Part shown: positions 51,596-53,019 of the stretch, piece by piece
Layout: each line of letters opens with the position of its first letter
How positions within the stretch are numbered: the stretch's first letter is position 1
Assembly (NCBI RefSeq): GCF_000246985.2
Contig: NC_022084.1
Coordinates: 1,823,224-1,887,223 of the forward strand
Length of the DNA: 64,000 nucleotides
Source of the DNA: Thermococcus litoralis DSM 5473
GTDB taxonomy: Archaea; Methanobacteriota_B; Thermococci; Thermococcales; Thermococcaceae
Reading direction: 5' to 3'
The notes under the pieces: generated by a model
What the model saw: only the letters and a program-made list of their open reading frames with translations
Databases searched by the model: none
Told to the model about the DNA's origin: nothing
Position numbers and translations under genes: made by a program

Positions 51596-52306
51596 ATGAG
51601 CAAACTTATACTAATAAGACATGGTGAAAGTCTGTGGAATAAGCTAAACCTTTTTACAGGCTGGGTTGATGTGCCTTTGAGCGAAAGGGGAATTGAGGAA
51701 GCTTTAAAGGCTGGGGAACTTCTAAAAGAGTGGAAGATAGATGTGGTATTTACCTCAGAACTTGTCAGAGCAATTCAGACTGCAATGCTCGTTATGAGCA
51801 AAAACACCTCCGGCGTTCCAAAGATAGAGCATGAAAACGGAAAAATGAAAGACTGGGGTATAGTATATGGAGAACACGGGAAAAATTACGTCCCCGTTTA
51901 TAAGTCGTGGCACCTCAATGAGCGCTATTACGGCAAACTGCAGGGTTTTAACAAGGATGAGGCAAAGAAAATCTACGGAGAAGAGCAGGTTTTGTTGTGG
52001 AGGAGAAGCTACGACATAGCCCCACCTGGAGGGGAGAGTCTTAAGGACACTGCCGAGAGGACAATTCCTTATTTTAAAGAAAAGATAATCCCGGAGCTTG
52101 AAAAGGGAAAAAACGTACTTGTCTCTGCCCATGGAAACAGCTTACGCTCAATAGTCATGCACATAGAAAAGCTAACTAAAGAGCAGGTTTTGAAGCTTAA
52201 CATCCCTACCGGAGTGCCGCTTATTTATGAGTACTCTGAAGGAAAACTTGAAAGGGTAGGCTATCTCTATGAGTGGGGCTATGATAAGAGCCTTCACATA
52301 GAATAA
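51596..52306 (+). CDS. gpmA: 2,3-Bisphosphoglycerate-dependent phosphoglycerate mutase, 236 aa
   Basis: LILIRHGESLWNKLNLFTGWVDVPLSERG has the catalytic His; ERYYGKLQGFNKDEAK and VLVSAHGNSLRSIVMHIEKL complete the active site (second His). Cofactor-dependent mutases are uncommon in archaea, where the independent (apgM) type is usual, so lateral gain is likely. Start at 51596 after AGGTG. Confidence 0.92.
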   Translation: MSKLILIRHGESLWNKLNLFTGWVDVPLSERGIEEALKAGELLKEWKIDVVFTSELVRAIQTAMLVMSKNTSGVPKIEHENGKMKDWGIVYGEHGKNYVPVYKSWHLNERYYGKLQGFNKDEAKKIYGEEQVLLWRRSYDIAPPGGESLKDTAERTIPYFKEKIIPELEKGKNVLVSAHGNSLRSIVMHIEKLTKEQVLKLNIPTGVPLIYEYSEGKLERVGYLYEWGYDKSLHIE

Positions 52307-52330: not shown

Positions 52331-52474
52331 TCAAATTATTTCGACTTCAAATCCTACAACTTCTATCCCTAACTTCCTTCTCGCTATTTCGAGGGCTTTC
52401 TCTACTTTGCTAACCACAACTATCTCCTCTTCGGGAATGGAATTCCTCTTGTAGTAGACTATTCTCGCGAGCAT
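52331..52474 (-). CDS. Small uncharacterised protein, 47 aa
   Basis: ATG at 52474 with GAGGTG at ideal spacing opens MLARIVYYKRNSIPEEEIVVV and ends ARRKLGIEVVGFEVEII. Codon pattern and ribosome binding site are convincing; no family recognised. The TGM site 52490-52506 lies 16 bases before its start, in the expected 5' leader, and it ends 24 bases from the convergent phosphoglycerate mutase gene. Confidence 0.65.
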   Translation of the reverse strand: MLARIVYYKRNSIPEEEIVVVSKVEKALEIARRKLGIEVVGFEVEII

Positions 52475-52489
52475 GCTTTTCACCTCTTG

Positions 52490-52506
52490 TATCACTTTGA
52501 GTGATA
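52490..52506. promoter_or_regulatory. Thermococcales glycolytic motif (TATCAC-N5-GTGATA)
   Basis: A perfect inverted repeat TATCAC-TTTGA-GTGATA. This is the site bound by the sugar regulator Tgr/TrmBL1, which represses glycolytic and activates gluconeogenic genes depending on position. For the 47-residue gene (minus strand, TATA box about 52540-52550) it lies downstream of the start point, a repressing place. For the JAMM gene (plus strand) it lies upstream of the same TATA box, an activating place. Confidence 0.75.
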
Positions 52507-52617
52507 ATACAGGAATACCAAATCTTGATGATTGTAAACATATTTATAAGCTTTTCTGCACTGATTTATTCATTGATGAACAAAAAAGATTTAAAGACCT
52601 GAGGAAAAGAAGCACTC

Positions 52618-53019
52618 ATGAGGAGTCTTTTTATAAAACGTGCACATTTGAAGGAAATTCTAACCAAGGCCAGAGAGAGCAAAGTTGAAATATGCGGATT
52701 TTTGATAGGGACGATGAAAGGGGAAGATGCCTTTGTGGACTATGTGGTCTTTGCAGAGAATCGGTTAAATTCTCCAGTAGGCTTTGAAATAGACCCTTTG
52801 GAAACGCTCAAAGTTCTTGAAAAAGCTGAAGAGGAAGGAAAGGAAGTCATTGGGATATTTCACTCCCACCTTAACTGTCCCCCATATCCCTCTCCTAGGG
52901 ATTTGAAAGGCATGGACTTGTGGAGAAACATATGGTTGATAGTAAATAACACTGGAGAATATAGGGCATTTGTTCTCGAAAACGGCCAGATAAAAGAAAT
53001 TAATGTTGAAGTAATTTAG
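52618..53019 (+). CDS. JAMM/MPN metalloprotease, 133 aa
   Basis: JAMM motif: KVEICGFLIG (Glu), then GIFHSHLNCPPYPSPRDLKG (H-x-H-x7-S-x2-D). This is the desampylase/RPN11-like fold that cuts ubiquitin-like proteins from targets. A TATA box (CATATTTATAAGC) lies about 65-75 bases ahead. The end overlaps the convergent mobB gene by four bases. Confidence 0.9.
   Translation: MRSLFIKRAHLKEILTKARESKVEICGFLIGTMKGEDAFVDYVVFAENRLNSPVGFEIDPLETLKVLEKAEEEGKEVIGIFHSHLNCPPYPSPRDLKGMDLWRNIWLIVNNTGEYRAFVLENGQIKEINVEVI

Follow-up and report, generated by a model that had tools for sequence, protein, structure and literature searches.

A putative Tgr/TrmBL1 operator conserved upstream of an orphan gene for a 47-residue protein in Thermococcus litoralis and other Thermococcaceae

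The Tgr regulon was described in a 2014 review as the largest then known in archaea (PMC4158304). In the ChIP-seq and in vitro transcription results reported for P. furiosus (PMC4706686), TrmBL1 was bound during gluconeogenic but not glycolytic growth; a TGM (TATCAC-N5-GTGATA) located downstream of the TATA box gave repression in vitro on 9 of 9 templates, and 2 of 3 upstream TGMs gave activation in vitro. We have analysed a window of 64,000 nucleotides from Thermococcus litoralis DSM 5473 that carries a TGM next to a small gene, here called gene A. The locus resembles the Tgr/TrmBL1 regulon of Thermococcus and Pyrococcus in the palindrome itself, in the presence of a regulator orthologue and in the location of the site downstream of a TATA box, which is also its place at repressed sugar genes, and differs from it in its target, an orphan protein of 47 residues that none of the nine g3 genomes searched encodes. 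The small gene, the divergent JAMM gene and the convergent phosphoglycerate mutase gene are laid out as in a preliminary description of this DNA. The features of the locus, with positions counted along the window, are as follows.

51596 to 52306, plus strand: gene for 2,3-bisphosphoglycerate-dependent phosphoglycerate mutase, convergent with gene A and without a TGM of its own
52331 to 52474, minus strand: gene A, orphan protein MLARIVYY...FEVEII of 47 residues, predicted beta-beta-alpha-beta (orthologues, dN/dS, structure model)
52480 to 52486, minus strand: likely Shine-Dalgarno sequence of gene A, GAGGTGA, read from the sequence
52490 to 52506, no strand assigned: TGM, predicted Tgr/TrmBL1 operator, TATCACTTTGAGTGATA; the start codon of gene A is 15 nt away
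52543 to 52550, minus strand: TATA box of gene A, CTTATAAA; the TGM starts 44 nt downstream of the TATA start
52571 to 52580, minus strand: conserved element with consensus TTCATYRATG, here TTCATCAATG; it starts 30 nt upstream of the gene A TATA box
52588 to 52596, plus strand: TATA-like box of the JAMM gene, GATTTAAAG, with its core at -29 from the ATG
52618 to 53019, plus strand: gene for a JAMM1-type metalloprotease (Prok-JAB); its place beside the TGM is probably that of a bystander (family match, gene order)

Candidate sites were scored by the number of half-site bases, out of 12, that match TATCAC-N5-GTGATA, and the reversed pattern served as the control. The sequence at 52490-52506 matches at 12 of 12 half-site bases, with TTTGA as the spacer, so that the exact palindrome is present where the preliminary description had placed it. 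Exact matches were found at 2 places in the T. litoralis genome (2,215,172 bp, a single contig), compared with 0 for the reversed control, and at 166 places in 94 Thermococcaceae genomes, compared with 4 for the control; 19 of the 166 are located at gene A. The other exact TGM of T. litoralis is directly 5' of the gene for a 4-alpha-glucanotransferase, the protein of which is identical over 493 residues to PDB 1k1w, the Thermococcus litoralis enzyme. When up to 2 mismatches were allowed, the TGM was not enriched: the 64-kb window had 2 matches, with 1.38 expected, and the genome had 63, compared with 79 for the reversed control. A single loose match therefore has no weight, whereas the exact match does. 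The genome also has one-mismatch TGMs 5' of three genes (L007, L008 and L009), which, from their N-terminal residues, we take to resemble fructose-1,6-bisphosphatase, glyceraldehyde-3-phosphate ferredoxin oxidoreductase and enolase. As a separate observation, one and the same 17-mer occurs at 532924 and 1139002 (L003 and L005), within near-identical sequence resembling a sugar transporter ATPase gene; such near-identity suggests that a segment near TrmB-type genes has been duplicated.

Orthologues of gene A, 47-49 residues in length, are present in 61 of the 94 Thermococcaceae genomes, and in 56 of these at least 10 of the 12 half-site bases were matched within 60 nt upstream of the gene (12 in 19 genomes, 11 in 25, 10 in 12, 9 in 2 and 7 in 3), although the 61 genomes are related, and the counts do not amount to 61 independent events. 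The reversed pattern scored at most 9 in these upstream regions, in 1 of 61, and base shuffles reached a score of 10 in 0.26% of cases. Conservation of the site, which the preliminary description had proposed as a check, is thus apparent across the family. Five half-site columns are invariant in all 56 of the 56 TGMs at gene A, while the spacer takes 35 different forms, and the distance from TGM to start codon is mostly 15-16 nt. These data bear on the view that the palindrome arose by chance, or else as a by-product of other constraints, such as those on the ribosome-binding site or promoter. The loose-match counts for the window and the genome would agree with that view, as would genome G047, in which the TGM match (9/12) overlaps the ribosome-binding site. 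However, the 166 exact places compared with 4, the invariant half-site bases around 35 spacers, and a site that in almost every genome stands clear of the ribosome-binding site all argue against it, and on the strength of this conservation we consider a chance origin very unlikely indeed. Three genomes (G078, G087 and G037) have a gene A without a TGM (7/12) yet keep Tgr, which counts against a universal rule. A coupling of TGM loss to loss of Tgr was rejected on the same three genomes.

Gene A is, from its pattern of substitution, a real coding gene under purifying selection: dN/dS was 0.10 or less in 11 of the 12 pairs tested, 2 of these without any amino-acid change, and was 0.48 in the remaining pair, a close one. 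A profile search of 115 genomes of the phylum at E 0.001 matched gene A in 62 genomes, all within the Thermococcaceae, one of the matches being a broken copy in G088. Among 25 Thermococcaceae genomes that mostly have no match to gene A, this copy, a broken remnant of the gene (L147, G088:C261), was the sole convincing find. A scan of contigs gave 8 loci, all of them metagenome-assembled Thermococcales. Our literature search, which did not extend to the primary Tgr and TGM papers (Kanai 2007; van de Werken 2006), found no paper on gene A, and the gene may already be listed in those two.

No family of Pfam or NCBIfam was matched by the 47-residue protein of the window (P0001). Among 52 members of the gene A family, matches to Pfam were weak and scattered, the best (0.00071) being found in 3 members, and those to PHROGs were likewise weak and scattered. 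A short helical match to FtsH chains (E 0.0024), in which no stretch passed alone, was taken as chance. The structure model for the protein, with a mean pLDDT of 95, predicts a beta-beta-alpha-beta arrangement. A Foldseek search with this model gave no match at E 0.001, and the best score in a fold comparison (VIA), Z 6.0, was not discriminating. By the latter comparison the modelled protein may resemble T7 Gp2, phage Dmd, an archaeal 50S ribosomal protein and YkzG in overall fold (Z 4.7-6.0), but we found no sequence relation to any of the four, and none was matched by Foldseek at E 0.001. The arrangement is a common one, and it implies no function for gene A. Nor could function be assigned from operon partners: gene A looks single, and its downstream neighbours differ from locus to locus, most of them being encoded on the other strand. 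One of these neighbours, phosphoglycerate mutase, is next downstream of gene A in 11 of 61 loci, and by this gene order its adjacency is incidental. The 200 nt upstream of the phosphoglycerate mutase gene contain no TGM (best score 8/12), and the gene was accordingly ruled out as a TGM target.

The neighbour on the other side is the JAMM gene, whose protein matches JAMM1 (PDB 5lda/5ld9; PF14464, Prok-JAB) over its length at E 5.8e-37. The preliminary description had proposed that a single TGM could repress gene A and activate the JAMM gene; on such a model Tgr would have both effects under gluconeogenic growth. There is some basis for this proposal in the divergent orientation of the pair, which places the TGM upstream of the JAMM gene, and this arrangement is kept in 15 of the 17 listed loci in which gene A and the JAMM gene are directly divergent. 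Also, activation in P. furiosus has been ascribed to upstream sites at distances of up to 156 bp, and repression on one side with activation on the other to a single TrmBL1 site (PMC4706686). Yet the JAMM genes located away from gene A carry no such site: among those without an adjacent gene A, 0 of 27 reached 10 of 12 TGM bases within 250 nt. The usual gene order in genus g4 is MobB, JAMM, and then two divergent genes, B and A, with the TGM between B and A; where the order is JAMM-B-A, 0 of 29 JAMM genes had a TGM within 250 nt. Conversely, in the 12 gene A loci without a JAMM gene in the 3-kb stretch, the TGM score was at least 10 in 11 and was 9 in one, and 4 of the genomes concerned (G019, G035, G042 and G068) have no JAMM match anywhere in the genome. 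Since the TGM is found at gene A where the JAMM gene is lacking, and is missing at the JAMM gene where gene A does not lie beside it, the site belongs to gene A and not to the JAMM gene.

Gene B, which lies between the JAMM gene and gene A in most g4 genomes (L085, L095, L092 and similar loci) and is present together with gene A in 40 of 61 loci, encodes a 49-residue paralogue of the gene A protein, with a profile comparison at E 8.5e-7 and the same predicted order of strands and helix. It differs from gene A in that it adjoins the JAMM gene, has its own TATA box and is without a TGM (1 of 48 rows reaches 10/12). Gene B and the JAMM gene have a short divergent promoter region in common. In the genus of the window gene B is missing, so that gene A is directly opposite the JAMM gene, and for this reason the JAMM gene comes to adjoin the TGM.

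The JAMM gene also differs from what the two-gene proposal would predict in having a TATA-like box of its own. By pattern, this box is located at -29 in 9 of 10 loci of genus g1 and at -29 to -31 in 33 of 34 g4 loci, and by its position the JAMM transcript is probably leaderless or near-leaderless. The AT box at 52543-52550 can therefore be assigned to gene A, and from the TGM to the TATA-like box of the JAMM gene is a distance of about 80 nt, within which the TATA box of gene A falls. The JAMM gene, which shows no sign of TGM control, was rejected as a TGM target on its own TATA-like box and on gene order (0/27, 0/29), and we regard control of both genes from the one site as improbable. Of the two-way model, then, repression of gene A retains sequence support, and extends far more widely than had been claimed (56 of 61 genomes), while activation of the JAMM gene and an AT box common to both genes are not supported; there is likewise no sign here that sugar control reaches protein deconjugation, since the JAMM gene is not tied to the TGM.

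With the site assigned to gene A, its position relative to the TATA box can be compared between genera. The TGM follows the TATA start at exactly 44 nt in all 13 loci of genera g1 and g5, at 22-26 nt in 41 of the 42 g4 loci, and at 43 nt in one g2 locus. Between the longer spacing, which is that of the genus of the window, and the shorter one there is a difference of about 21 bp, or two DNA turns; helical phase is apparently kept, as though the side of the DNA on which the site falls were important. With a distance of about 44 nt, the TGM in the genus of the window probably lies past the transcription start, which makes the geometry of repression less standard. The promoter of gene A may also carry a site for a second regulator, as is suggested by the TTCATYRATG element on the far side of the TATA box. 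Near gene A this consensus was matched at 10 of 10 positions in 22 of 60 loci and at 9 in 18 of 60, although not in every case 30 nt before the TATA start; 2.2% of shuffles reached 9, and none was listed at 10. In the T. litoralis genome the element followed by a TATA-like run 14-24 nt on occurs once, at gene A.

A Tgr/TrmBL1 orthologue is encoded in most of the 94 Thermococcaceae genomes. In T. litoralis it is P0003, a protein of 341 residues with Tyr49-Asp50, beside which lie genes that, from their sequence, we take to be those for glycogen synthase and an amylase. The traits of P0003 match those listed for Tgr in the 2014 review (PMC4158304). By sequence, then, the site is, as had been suggested earlier, of the type bound by Tgr/TrmBL1, and the genome encodes the orthologue. 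The conservation of the site, its linkage to gene A and the coding nature of that gene are likewise direct readings of the sequences compared.

The genome encodes three full-length TrmB-type proteins, and the TGM could in principle be used by another member of the TrmB family, in which case the signal would not be the maltotriose of Tgr; the candidates are TrmB itself, the third paralogue (near triosephosphate isomerase) and some other regulator. A TGM-like operator at the T. kodakarensis RuBisCO gene is indeed reported to be outside Tgr control (PMC12628685). On the other side, the perfect TGM is the established site of Tgr/TrmBL1, the site reported for TrmB is TACTN3AGTA (PMC4158304), and the only other perfect TGM of this genome precedes the gene for a sugar enzyme, 4-alpha-glucanotransferase. 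Use of the site by a different regulator thus seems unlikely to us.

We conclude that the TGM is, with good probability, the Tgr (TrmBL1) operator of gene A, through which the gene would be repressed in the absence of maltodextrins and released on sugar. By analogy with the P. furiosus rule, we infer Tgr binding, repression and sugar induction of gene A; with the TGM downstream of its TATA box, a gene repressed when sugar is lacking and induced by maltodextrins is the best supported outcome. Without maltodextrins, Tgr on the TGM just downstream of the TATA box would block RNA polymerase. On binding sugar, Tgr would free the TGM, and gene A, as a single-gene transcription unit, would be expressed along with the glycolytic enzymes; the JAMM gene would be transcribed from its own promoter, apart from the TGM.

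As to what the product of gene A does, its weak neighbours in fold space (T7 Gp2, Dmd, the archaeal 50S protein and YkzG) have many protein-binding proteins among them; this gives a reason to guess, though no support for the guess, that the product is a small protein-binding modulator. Tentatively, gene A may encode a lineage-specific, sugar-induced microprotein that acts post-transcriptionally in the switch between glycolysis and gluconeogenesis, with the TGM and the TTCATYRATG element as its inputs; it might, for example, bind and modulate an enzyme, RNA polymerase or the ribosome.

The JAMM case illustrates the risk of taking a divergently transcribed neighbour for a regulatory target, a question that genomes in which the two genes are apart can resolve. 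The genus g3, from which gene A is absent, we take to be Pyrococcus, and for that reason ChIP-seq in P. furiosus could not reveal gene A. An orphan gene thus carries one of the most conserved putative Tgr operators across Thermococcus, and is missing where binding was mapped genome-wide. If gene A does respond to sugar, it would offer a way into the question of how archaea control central carbon metabolism post-transcriptionally.
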